Assembly: GCF_022539405.1 (NCBI RefSeq)
Contig: NZ_CP054394.1
Coordinates: forward strand, 2,674,501-2,738,500
Reading direction: 5' to 3'
Length of the DNA stretch: 64,000 nucleotides
Source of the DNA: Natranaerofaba carboxydovora
GTDB lineage: Bacteria; Bacillota; Natranaerobiia; Natranaerobiales; Natranaerofabaceae
This document shows positions 19,442 through 38,118 of the stretch, piece after piece. A program made the translations under genes and the position numbers. The notes beneath the pieces were generated by a model, which saw only the letters and a program-made list of their open reading frames with translations, had not been told where the DNA came from and did not search any database. Numbering within the stretch: position 1 is the stretch's first letter; each line of letters begins with the position of its first letter.

Positions 19442-20332
19442 TCAGACTTTAAGGTATTTCCTGATAGAAATGATGCTTCCTACCGCTCCCAAAAAAGTAC
19501 CTAGCAAAATCAAGAATAGATCAACTTGTCCAAGCGCTGCTTCAGGGCTTGCCAGGGCAAAAAATCCTGACTGCGAAAATGTTAGACCAGTCAGATATGA
19601 ATATCCATAACGAAGTAAAATAACAGGTATAACAGAACCTAAAAAACCAAGTATCAAACCTTCTAATAAAAACGGCCAGCGAATAAACCAGTTCTTCGCC
19701 CCTACCATTTTCATGATACCAATTTCCTCTCTACGGGCATAAACAGTTAGCTTAATAGTGTTTCCTATCAAAAAAGTAGCAGTCAAAGCCAAAGCTCCCA
19801 TAAAAGCATAGACTCCAACACGGATCAATCCAGTTACTTCAAATAAAGTATCCACAACTTCTTGACCATAATCAACCATCTCAACTCCTGAGAGAGATTT
19901 AATCTCCTCGGCAACTTCTGGTACATCCTCAGGTTCGTGTGTACTCACTTCAAAAAGGTGAGGCAGAGGATTCATCTCAGGATCTTCTCTGTAGCCTGCT
20001 ACAGCGCTTTCGCCAAGCTGTGCTTCCATCCGCTCTAGTCCTTCTTCTTTAGACACAAATCTTACTTCTTCAACCTGGGGTTGTCTAATAATTCCCCTTC
20101 TTAATTCATCTACATCGTTTTCTGATGCATCTTCTTCAACCCATACTGCTATTTCGACCTGGGATCTAATCTCTTCTGTAATATGGTTAACATTATAATT
20201 AACGAGCATGAATGCTCCAAGTATAAATAAAGTTATTGTAACAACACTTACAGAAGCTATACTCATCCAACCGTTTCTATAGATACTTTTAAAAGCTTCA
20301 CTAAAATAGTAACTCCAGTTCCTAAGCTTCAT
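19442..20332 (-). CDS. ftsX: Cell-division permease-like protein
   Basis: Membrane partner of FtsE. One N-terminal membrane segment (MSIASVSVVTITLFILGAFML), a ~130-aa external domain carrying an EVAEEIKSLSG-type fold, then three C-terminal segments, the normal FtsX layout. The start is placed at ATG 20332 because AAAGGTGG lies about nine bases upstream; the longer frame (to 20356) would add eight residues. It overlaps ftsE by 11 bp. It probably transmits ATP-driven changes to the M23 protein encoded next. Confidence 0.94.
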   Translation of the reverse strand: MKLRNWSYYFSEAFKSIYRNGWMSIASVSVVTITLFILGAFMLVNYNVNHITEEIRSQVEIAVWVEEDASENDVDELRRGIIRQPQVEEVRFVSKEEGLERMEAQLGESAVAGYREDPEMNPLPHLFEVSTHEPEDVPEVAEEIKSLSGVEMVDYGQEVVDTLFEVTGLIRVGVYAFMGALALTATFLIGNTIKLTVYARREEIGIMKMVGAKNWFIRWPFLLEGLILGFLGSVIPVILLRYGYSYLTGLTFSQSGFFALASPEAALGQVDLFLILLGTFLGAVGSIISIRKYLKV

Positions 20333-21008
20333 TGCTATAACCACCTTTTGCATCATCTCTAATAATTGCTCCGTCTTTTAGTTCAACAACACGCCTTCTT
20401 GCAAAGTTAACCAATTCTTTATCGTGGGTGGCCATTATCATGGTTGTCCCTTGAATATTGACCTCAATAAGTATGTCCATAATCTCTCTAGATGTTCTTG
20501 GGTCTAAGTTACCCGTAGGCTCGTCCGCAATAACTATTGATGGCTGGTTTATAATTGCCCTTGCAATTCCGACCCTTTGCTTTTCACCACCTGAGAGTTC
20601 AGAGACAAGACGATTTTTTTTCCCTTCTAGCTCTACCATTTTAAGTATTCTTGGAACCCTTTCTCTTATTGTTTTCTTTGGAGATTCAACAGCTCTCATT
20701 GCAAAGGCTATATTTTCAAATACAGTCCTATTATCTAGAAGGCGATAATCCTGGAATACAATCCCAAGATTTCTCCTCAGACTAGGGATATGCCTTCTTT
20801 TCATTTTTTTTAGATTTTTGCCATTCACAATTAATTTGCCGCTGGTGGGAAGTTCTTCCCTATATACGAGTTTCATAAAAGTGGACTTGCCTGCACCGCT
20901 CTCTCCCACCAAAAAAGTAAACTCCCCCTTGCCGATAAATAAATTTATGTTATCGAGTGCTTTGACCCGGTTTTTATACACTTTACTCACTGCCTGCATC
21001 TCAATCAA
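20322..21008 (-). CDS. ftsE: Cell-division ATP-binding protein
   Basis: ABC ATPase of 228 aa that pairs with FtsX. Walker A GESGAGKST near residue 38, signature ELSGGEKQRVGIARAI, Walker B IVIADEPTGNLD and the H-loop MATHDKELV are intact. It begins the ftsE-ftsX-M23 unit; AAGGAGAG precedes its ATG. No strong promoter is clear in the 60 bp between its start and the dispersed repeat. Confidence 0.96.
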   Translation of the reverse strand: MIEMQAVSKVYKNRVKALDNINLFIGKGEFTFLVGESGAGKSTFMKLVYREELPTSGKLIVNGKNLKKMKRRHIPSLRRNLGIVFQDYRLLDNRTVFENIAFAMRAVESPKKTIRERVPRILKMVELEGKKNRLVSELSGGEKQRVGIARAIINQPSIVIADEPTGNLDPRTSREIMDILIEVNIQGTTMIMATHDKELVNFARRRVVELKDGAIIRDDAKGGYSNEA

Positions 21009-21119: not shown

Positions 21120-21123
21120 ATAT

Positions 21124-21157
21124 AGCCCCTGGCAATATTTGGATCCCCCAGGGGGCT
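21124..21157. other. Unassigned GC-rich hairpins between ftsE and the tRNA-like RNA
   Basis: AGCCCCTGG pairs with CCAGGGGGCT (one bulge) around a 15-base loop. No T-run follows on either strand. A second weak stem (GAAGGATTT with AAATCCTCTTC) lies at about 21187-21220. The 21009-21624 gap otherwise holds the repeat, the RNA, its terminator and its promoter. Confidence 0.5.
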
Positions 21158-21249
21158 CGTCTTCTACCTTCTCTTAACATATCCACAGAAGGATTTCGAC
21201 AAGCTTTTCAAAAATCCTCTTCTAATTAACAAAAAATATAAAATAAAAA

Positions 21250-21282
21250 CCCCCCGAACAGACTTTACTCTGCCCGGGGGCT
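21250..21282 (-). terminator. Terminator of the tRNA-like RNA gene
   Basis: Read on the minus strand CCCCCG pairs with CGGGGG and CAGA with TCTG around GTAAAG, followed by TTTTTATTTTAT. It lies 12 bases past the RNA's 3' end. Confidence 0.85.
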
Positions 21283-21293
21283 ATCCGGTAAAG

Positions 21294-21455
21294 TATGACG
21301 GACAGGAATTGAACCTGTACGGTGTTGTTTCGAGTGACCTGCCGGGCTCCAACACATTGTAGTTTGAGATACCGATATCAGTGACTACCAACCGCTACAC
21401 CCGGTCCTAAGGCCAACACCTCACGCGTAGCGTCTTACCTTTCCGCCACCGCCAT
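21294..21455 (-). ncRNA. Oversized tRNA-like RNA (162 nt) with tRNA acceptor, D-arm and T-arm
   Basis: Ends: acceptor ATGGCGG (21455-21449) pairs with CCGTCAT (21301-21295), seven of seven with one G-U, plus a discriminator A and no encoded CCA. D-arm GCG-GAAAGGTAAGA-CGC (21446-21430) is of the Leu/Ser class. T-arm ACAGG-TTCAATT-CCTGT (21318-21302) is fully canonical. In place of one anticodon arm stands GGTGTTG/CAACACC (21420-21414 with 21327-21321), enclosing ~86 nt. That insert has its own stems CCGGG/CCCGG, GTAGT/ACTAC and GATA/TATC. A Leu-like heptamer CTTAGGA (TAG inside) is at 21411-21405 but is not flanked by a proper anticodon stem. A good promoter and terminator bracket it. Options: interrupted tRNA-Leu, decayed tRNA, or a new tRNA-mimic RNA. 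I see no tmRNA tag frame and no group I intron core. Confidence 0.7.
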
Positions 21456-21474
21456 ACTTTAAATTTTCAATATA

Positions 21475-21503
21475 ATTATAACATATAAAAATCTGTCTTC
21501 CAA
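21475..21503 (-). promoter_or_regulatory. Promoter of the tRNA-like RNA
   Basis: Minus strand -35 TTGGAA (21503-21498), 17-bp spacer, -10 TATAAT (21480-21475). The start would be near 21468, about 13 nt before the acceptor stem, as for a tRNA precursor. Confidence 0.75.
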
Positions 21504-21624: not shown

Positions 21625-22767
21625 TTAAAAGCTTATATATTCACCGTTGTTTATAACTCCTCGTACATCTAATGAATTATTAAAAATCACTAAATCTGCC
21701 AGATACCCATCTTTCACCCTTCCCAAATCTTTGTCTTTGCCAATTATTTTAGCAGGATATGTCGAAGCCATCCTTAGCGCTTCTTCTAGTGAGATGCCTA
21801 TATTGTTCACACAGTTTTTAACAGCCCCTGACATATCCAAAGCTGAACCAGCCAATCTTCCATTTTTGTCAGTGCATCTATAACCTTCACAGTTTATTTT
21901 TTGGTCTTCAAGGTAAAATTCATTAATATCACTGCCTACAGGAGGCATCGAGTCTGTGACTATTATAATTTTGTCCTTTTTCATTTGATAAGCAATTTTT
22001 AACGAGTTAAAATCTACATGGTATCCGTCAGGTATTATACTGCTCCATACTTTGTTATCAAGCAAAGAAGCACCAACCAAACCCGGCTCTCTAGAATGTA
22101 ATTGCGACATAGCATTGAACAAATGACTCACCTTAGAAACTCCCATTTCAAAAGCTCTTTTTGCCTCTTTGAATGAACAGTTACTGTGACCTGCAGAAAC
22201 TATTATGTCACTTTTCACCATCTCTTTTAATTGCTCTTCTTCAAAGATTTCAGGAGCTAAAGTGATTATTTTGATAACGTCTTGATTAAATTTAATAAGC
22301 TCTAACAGTTCTTCTGTCTTCGCCTTTTTAATATGACTGGCCAAATGAATACCCTTTTTTTCTTCATTTATATACGGTCCTTCAAGGTGCAGTCCAACTA
22401 CACCAAGTTCTCCTGTCTTCATAGCCTCTCTTACAGTCTCTATCCCTCTTAGAATGTTATCTTTAGATGTACTTATAATGGTGGGAAGAAAGCTGGTCGT
22501 CCCATATCTCATATGAGCATCAAAAATCACTTTAAGGGATTTAACACTCAGATAATCATTAAATAATAATCCTCCTCCCCCATTTACCTGTAGATCAATA
22601 AAACCAGGCGAGACATTACAATGATTCAAATCAATCACTTTTAGGTCTTCTGGAATATTAGACTCATCAACTATAGAATGTATTATCTCGCCTGATATAA
22701 TAATAGCTTTATTTTTTAAGACCTCATCACCAGTATATATCACTGCATTAACCAAAGCATAATCCAT
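21625..22767 (-). CDS. nagA: N-acetylglucosamine-6-phosphate deacetylase
   Basis: Removes acetate from GlcNAc-6-P in amino-sugar recycling. Family motifs: PGFIDLQVNGGGG near residue 56, HLEGPYINEEKKGIH near residue 127, SAGHSN and VSHLFNAMSQLHSREPG (metal ligands), IVTDSMPPVG with the catalytic Asp, and GRVKDGYLADLVIFN at the C-terminus. The 380 aa length is normal. It follows the ROK kinase by 25 bp; together they would phosphorylate and deacetylate GlcNAc released from the cell wall. nagB is not in view. Confidence 0.95.
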   Translation of the reverse strand: MDYALVNAVIYTGDEVLKNKAIIISGEIIHSIVDESNIPEDLKVIDLNHCNVSPGFIDLQVNGGGGLLFNDYLSVKSLKVIFDAHMRYGTTSFLPTIISTSKDNILRGIETVREAMKTGELGVVGLHLEGPYINEEKKGIHLASHIKKAKTEELLELIKFNQDVIKIITLAPEIFEEEQLKEMVKSDIIVSAGHSNCSFKEAKRAFEMGVSKVSHLFNAMSQLHSREPGLVGASLLDNKVWSSIIPDGYHVDFNSLKIAYQMKKDKIIIVTDSMPPVGSDINEFYLEDQKINCEGYRCTDKNGRLAGSALDMSGAVKNCVNNIGISLEEALRMASTYPAKIIGKDKDLGRVKDGYLADLVIFNNSLDVRGVINNGEYISF

Positions 22768-37617: not shown

Positions 37618-37640
37618 TAAACTCAGTGAAAAGATAATAA

Positions 37641-37815
37641 TACTCGTTAGGTGAGGCTCCTAGATGAACATAGGCTGCTGCCCAAAAACGTCGAGAGACG
37701 CCAATGGGTAAAACAGGCACGGCCGGCTTAAGGCCTGTCTAAAGCAGCTGACCCTTAACTACTCTTACTGTCAATTGGTCTACGTCATCTAGTGCCAAAG
37801 CTTATACGAGGGGTA
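37641..37815 (+). promoter_or_regulatory. M-box (ykoK) magnesium riboswitch
   Basis: Conserved blocks occur in order: CGTTAGGTGAGGCTCCTAGA, GGCTGCTGCCC, AAAAACG, AGACGCCAATGGGT, AAGCAGCTG and AGTGCCAAAGCT. These are the hallmark segments of the Mg2+-binding M-box aptamer. High Mg2+ should favour the terminator at 37927-37950 and stop mgtE synthesis; a long AT-rich stem (TTAATTGATatgattATCAATTAA, near 37858-37883) may take part in the switch. Confidence 0.93.
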
Positions 37816-37926
37816 TAACTGCTTTAATTAATGTCAAATTGATAGTTAAATTAGTTAATTAATTGATATGATTATCAATTAATTGTTAGCGCTTTGATTA
37901 GCGTTTTGATGTTTTTTAAAAAGTAG

Positions 37927-37980: not shown

Positions 37981-38118
37981 ATGGATGTTCCCTGGCACCC
38001 CCAGATTAATTACAAATATATATCAAGCAAGAATAAAACTATAGTACAGGAGGGGTTATTATGCCGCTTTACCAAAATGTTCAAGATTATATTGAAAACA
38101 AGCAAATGGATGATCTAA
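37981..38118 (+). CDS. Possible 45-aa leader peptide overlapping mgtE
   Basis: ATG 37981 follows AAAGGAGGTGG at ideal spacing, better placed than many genes here. The frame reads MDVPWHPQINYKYISSKNKT and ends 58 bases inside mgtE. The mgtE start with its own AGGAGGGG lies inside this frame. Translation of the leader would therefore pass over the mgtE start, either coupling or blocking it. Mg2+-transporter leader peptides (mgtL, corL) are known in enterobacteria; this one shares only an early proline pair (PWHP). Expression is unproven. Confidence 0.45.
   Translation: MDVPWHPQINYKYISSKNKTIVQEGLLCRFTKMFKIILKTSKWMI

Follow-up and report, generated by a model that had tools for sequence, protein, structure and literature searches.

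On the minus strand of the window, the whole 64,000-nt stretch of Natranaerofaba carboxydovora DNA analyzed here, we found a tRNA-like RNA locus whose best reading, held with moderate confidence, is an expressed, non-decoding, tRNA-derived functional non-coding RNA. The locus is the reverse complement of 21294-21455 (162 nt). The initial annotation had described a 162-nt tRNA-like RNA with acceptor, D- and T-arms; the element lies at exactly 21455-21294, and the strand, which that description lacked, is minus. The RNA is intergenic, flanked by two minus-strand genes at 20322-21008 and 21625-22767. Reading their translations, we take the former to encode the ABC-type ATPase FtsE, and the latter presumably encodes an N-acetylglucosamine-6-phosphate deacetylase. 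The stretch is present as a single copy in the genome; a mobile element or att site was rejected on this ground. The features of the locus are as follows.

21475-21503, minus strand: promoter-like site TTGGAA-17-TATAAT (TG ahead of the -10), giving a predicted start at ~21468
21456-21461, minus strand: leader TAAAGT, 5′ strand of a 6-bp acceptor extension
21449-21455, minus strand: acceptor 5′ strand ATGGCGG, pairing with CCGTCAT
21430-21446, minus strand: Leu-type D-arm TGGCGGAAAGGTAAGACGC (GCG/CGC stem, GG in the loop)
21419-21429, minus strand: TACGCGTGAGG, equivalent to tRNA-Leu(GAG) positions 27-37, with anticodon GAG at 21422-21420 and the 3′ half of the arm missing
21414-21420, minus strand: GGTGTTG, 5′ strand of a central stem that is one of at least two near-equal folds
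21319-21418, minus strand: ~100 unrecognised nt separating the anticodon loop and the T-arm, with no significant Leu similarity
21321-21327, minus strand: CAACACC, 3′ strand of the central stem; taken with GTAC, similar to the variable-arm 3′ side of Leu tRNAs
21302-21318, minus strand: T-arm ACAGG-TTCAATT-CCTGT, perfect
21295-21301, minus strand: acceptor 3′ strand CCGTCAT
21289-21294, minus strand: ACTTTA, discriminator A plus trailer, which form the 3′ partner in the 6-bp extension; CCA absent
21243-21280, minus strand: intrinsic terminator, a 12-pair stem (21280-21251) plus a T-run

The 7-bp acceptor, D-arm and perfect T-arm noted previously were all found on the minus strand, the D-arm being of Leu type. 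The acceptor ATGGCGG/CCGTCAT has seven pairs, one of them G-U; acceptor, D- and T-arms are paired and the elbow nucleotides are present, as in the tRNA family (RF00005). The best Rfam match was the tRNA model itself, aligned to exactly 21455-21294 over all 71 model positions with 26.4 bits (E = 0.0025 for 501 bases searched; E = 0.0039 for the whole genome). Of the checks suggested in the initial annotation, the Rfam search gave a tRNA score just below the curated cut-off of 29 bits, and ARAGORN in normal mode called no tRNA in the window. The intron mode of ARAGORN gave an implausible tRNA-Pro(tgg) with a 70-nt intron. A closed 5-bp anticodon arm with a 7-nt loop was not found at the locus; the 5′ half of the arm is present, and no single excision restores the arm.

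Comparison with 236 fetched tRNAs pointed to tRNA-Leu. The top four 5′ matches were all Leu(GAG), and the best of these was identical to the 5′ half of the locus in 30 of 36 aligned columns up to position 37, after which the similarity stops. TACGCGTGAGG places U33, the anticodon GAG and G37 correctly (positional shuffle test, p ~0.01); an unplaced local test was not significant (0.235). When the rest of the Leu sequence was sought within the insert, the alignment score was matched by 22% of shuffles for Leu(GAG) and by 12% for all Leu tRNAs. Resemblance to Leu tRNA returns immediately ahead of the T-arm, where CACCGTAC is similar to the 3′ side of the variable arm. Because the similarity runs to position 37 and a Leu-like CACCGTAC precedes the T-arm, the replaced stretch extends from the anticodon loop to the variable arm. 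The insert previously placed in the position of the anticodon arm does exist; its extent differs, starting within the anticodon loop and ending shortly ahead of the T-arm. The tRNA-Leu origin considered in the initial annotation is supported by the 5′-half match to Leu(GAG) through the anticodon, with Leu(GAG) the most likely source.

The ordinary Leu tRNAs of the genome include Leu(GAG), Leu(TAG), Leu(TAA) and Leu(CAA). The genome tRNA list comprises 150 scored candidates of 199, with no tRNA-Ile(GAT) among those listed; therefore, absent isoacceptors prove nothing. The locus shares with tRNA-Leu, a class II tRNA, the acceptor, the D-arm, the T-arm and part of the anticodon loop. It differs in having no closed anticodon arm, in length (162 vs ~85 nt), in its sealed ends, and in an A1-U72 pair.

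The sealing of the ends was missed in the initial annotation. TAAAGT and ACTTTA pair perfectly and lengthen the acceptor to 13 consecutive terminal pairs. The extension beyond the acceptor is 6 bp at the locus; in 43 further tRNA genes from this genome it ranges from 0 to 3 bp. We estimate the chance of six pairs in a row at a few in a thousand, taking ~0.4 per position in the A+T-rich flanks. In the predicted fold of the full transcript, pair probabilities in the terminal helix were 0.84-1.0 save for the innermost pair, and those of the D-stem were ~0.9. CCA is encoded by all complete tRNA genes listed for the genome but not at the locus. The free, processable ends with CCA expected of an RF00005 tRNA were therefore not found, the 13-bp stem running through position 73. 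With such an end helix and no CCA, tRNA-type end maturation should be hindered. Pairing of a leader with the 3′ end has been reported to inhibit RNase P binding (PMC9433436); by analogy, maturation of the locus RNA into a charged tRNA is unlikely. A second potential partner of ACTTTAC in the trailer (21289-21294) is GTAAAGT, its complement in the loop of the terminator near 21266, so the trailer could pair with that loop or with the leader.

The -35/-10 promoter with 17-bp spacing and the strong terminator described before are both present. In shuffles of the stretch scanned, 1.8 promoter-like and 0.4 terminator-like sites were expected by chance; therefore, the terminator alone is at all remarkable, and the promoter, with 1.8 such sites expected, is weak on its own. 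Promoter and terminator together support, without proving, a putative transcript. A second G+C-rich inverted repeat (AGCCCC...GGGGCT, 21120-21160) lies between the terminator of the RNA and ftsE; over the range searched, Rfam gave no convincing match. The segment directly following the -10, TTGAAAATTTAAAGTAT, recurs elsewhere in the genome as a 24-nt near copy (92%), which may be a chance similarity (E = 0.015).

Folding gave no unique structure for the insert. With the cloverleaf arms fixed, a fold keeping all 7 central pairs had -60.9 kcal/mol, and a fold with the hairpin TGAGGT-GTTG-GCCTTA at the anticodon position had -59.7 kcal/mol, within 1.2 of the central-stem fold; a 5-bp anticodon stem gave -52.3 kcal/mol. 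The central stem is therefore one of at least two near-equal possibilities. Thus, the complementarity GGTGTTG/CAACACC noted earlier stands; its status as the one fold does not, a rival lying ~1 kcal/mol away. Relative to dinucleotide shuffles, neither the 162-mer (z = -1.06) nor the insert (z = -0.46) folds better, and the three nested stems earlier drawn within the insert find no support at the latter value. The hairpin TGAGGT-GTTG-GCCTTA was also considered as P1 of a group I intron, which it fits by eye as a near-equal fold, and this was rejected because no other intron part was recognised.

BLAST revealed no homologue in 101 relatives or in 398 phylum genomes, a sample with no other genome of the same family, in which the nearest genomes belong to families other than Natranaerofabaceae. 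A single-sequence covariance model likewise found none in the 398 genomes, and none with looser filters in 40 relatives; the stronger matches examined were ordinary Leu tRNAs. The covariance search in related genomes that had been proposed thus yielded no homologue in the 398 phylum genomes, the nearest of them from other families. None was found in phages and plasmids, or by sequence patterns in viral and GTDB contigs. Neither visual examination nor ARAGORN revealed tRNA features in the pattern matches inspected or in one weak long model match, all of which were read as ordinary, probably coding sequence. When a pattern combining a Leu D-arm with a T-arm at a distance of 110-138 nt was used, 112 of the 398 genomes gave matches; apart from the locus, these were judged by eye to be tandem tRNAs, stretches lacking a Leu D-loop, or a single masked stretch. 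No like RNA was recognised in the syntenic regions beside ftsE in two other genomes of the order. Since no homologue was found, there is no covariation and no proof of selection. Beside ftsE, two related genomes have stretches that resemble, by eye, a candidate M-box element on the opposite strand. The window itself contains an M-box magnesium riboswitch on the plus strand at 37636-37820 (153 bits), ahead of an ORF at 38061.

Three other explanations of the locus were weighed. At E values of 0.0025 and 0.0039, the tRNA resemblance is unlikely to have arisen by chance. A Rfam tRNA score below the cut-off and unremarkable folding of the whole RNA would be expected of a chance resemblance, or of another kind of small RNA that mimics a tRNA by its terminal stem and a single hairpin; however, the match has E = 0.004 genome-wide and covers the full 71-position model, the D-arm is of the Leu type and the anticodon placement also fits, and the rows of the D-arm/distant T-arm pattern in 398 genomes, read by eye, contained no like case besides this locus. 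We consider this explanation very improbable. Equally improbable is a tRNA-Leu(GAG) interrupted after position 37 by a small intron that is spliced out. The 5′ half does match Leu(GAG) to position 37 and then ends, and when 837 distinct single-excision products of 70-100 nt were generated, ARAGORN called 176 as tRNA, most often as Leu(gag) (39 of the 176 calls). However, no product among the 837 had a Leu anticodon on a 5-bp anticodon stem while also keeping its variable region within 10-25 nt, so that no single excision restores the anticodon stem together with a variable region of normal length. Rfam showed no group I or group II intron match at the locus with E up to 10, and the stretch is far too short for a group I intron, such introns being over 200 nt. 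Moreover, an archaeal-type tRNA-splicing endonuclease is not known in bacteria, and the 6-bp end extension would obstruct maturation. The interrupted tRNA-Leu offered in the initial annotation is thus not supported, with no clean tRNA-Leu among the 837 single excisions.

A more serious contender, which we regard as possible and less probable than a functional RNA, is a dead tRNA-Leu gene: an extra copy, acquired or ancient, broken in the anticodon loop by insertion or recombination and now drifting, with promoter and terminator as leftovers. The single copy and lack of a detected homologue, and an insert without supported structure, are consistent with a pseudogene; other Leu tRNAs in the genome, including Leu(GAG), make this one dispensable, and the genome does contain a tRNA-Gly pseudogene. 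The latter, a tRNA-Gly(TCC) at ~3166655-3166730 between tRNA-Tyr and tRNA-Met, has lost its acceptor stem and matches the Rfam tRNA model with 27.7 bits at model positions 8-63 only. Its acceptor pairing is lost while its resemblance to the parent is close; the locus shows the opposite pattern. In the locus, acceptor and T-stem are fully paired despite several pair differences from the Leu tRNAs compared, the 6-bp extension is without parallel in 43 other tRNA genes, and A1-U72 replaces G1-C72, unlike a recent copy of a working Leu tRNA; these points argue against a drifting gene. Compared with the closest Leu(GAG) fetched, both nucleotides have changed in two pairs of the acceptor and in two of the T-stem, with pairing kept in each, although these paired changes could predate the loss of decoding. 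A functional RNA is favored by the pairing of all stems of the tRNA frame, the four two-sided pair changes, the lengthened terminal helix and the predicted promoter and terminator of its own; the failure to find a homologue and insert folding no better than shuffles speak against it. Of the two readings in the initial annotation, the tRNA-mimic non-coding RNA is the better; the use of tRNA ends that it included is unlikely with these ends sealed in a 13-bp helix.

In the preferred reading of a functional non-coding RNA, the single-copy minus-strand gene would be transcribed into a free-standing RNA of ~225 nt (~21468 to 21243) descended from tRNA-Leu, probably Leu(GAG). By retaining the tRNA elbow, formed by the D-loop/T-loop contact, the RNA would gain stability and offer tRNA-handling proteins a surface to bind. 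Its long terminal helix would keep RNase P and CCA addition from producing charged-tRNA ends, and the RNA would not decode. The insert, held at the former place of the anticodon and variable arms, may carry the specific activity, through mRNA pairing or protein binding. The fuller proposal of a natural tRNA scaffold, that is, a stable free-standing regulatory RNA in which a sealed-end tRNA-Leu body displays a functional domain in place of the anticodon and variable arms, is speculative and rather unlikely. If expressed, the locus would represent the conversion of a tRNA gene into a free-standing non-coding RNA, with the elbow retained and both decoding and tRNA ends abandoned. It would then reveal directly which of the proteins that handle tRNA (modification enzymes, RNase P, the ribosome) respond to the elbow by itself. 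As a pseudogene, it would illustrate how broken class II tRNAs can mislead sequence readers.

The locus RNA was compared with known RNAs. Like tmRNA, it has a tRNA-like acceptor and T-arm and a long insert where the anticodon arm would be; it differs in having a full D-stem, no CCA and no RF00023 match. It was rejected as a tmRNA because there is no RF00023 match at the locus and the normal tmRNA of the genome lies elsewhere, at 363811-364162 (190 bits). In the engineered tRNA scaffold, a laboratory tool, foreign RNA is carried in place of the tRNA anticodon arm, as in the locus RNA; unlike the locus RNA, that scaffold is artificial and keeps processable ends. The initial annotation would have yielded to an Rfam match with a known family, such as YrlA or a group I intron-bearing tRNA; neither the YrlA model nor an intron family matched. 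In YrlA, a bacterial Y RNA (RF02553), the D- and T-arms mimic tRNA and the ends pair in a long stem (PMC8394870). The locus RNA likewise has tRNA-like D- and T-arms and 5′/3′ ends paired in a long stem. When aligned to two tandem tRNAs, the YrlA model spans their junction, suggesting that the order in YrlA is T-arm then D-arm; the locus RNA has D then T, as in tRNA. No RF02553 match with E up to 10 was found at the locus, nor was a gene for Ro60 (TROVE) protein found in the genome. YrlA identity was rejected on these two results and the apparently opposite arm order.

The closest parallel in function may be tRNA-Other of Bacillus cereus. This pseudo-tRNA, with a Trp anticodon, was reported beside a pathogenicity island, in transcripts reaching hundreds of nt upstream; its proposed role is that of a tRNA-like element forming part of a longer regulatory RNA (PMC3399842). 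The locus differs in its lost anticodon arm, ~100 extra nt, 13-bp sealed end and lack of a detected relative. In the proposed reading, the locus RNA would likewise be a tRNA-like element outside translation and within a larger RNA, and by this analogy it would work most like tRNA-Other.
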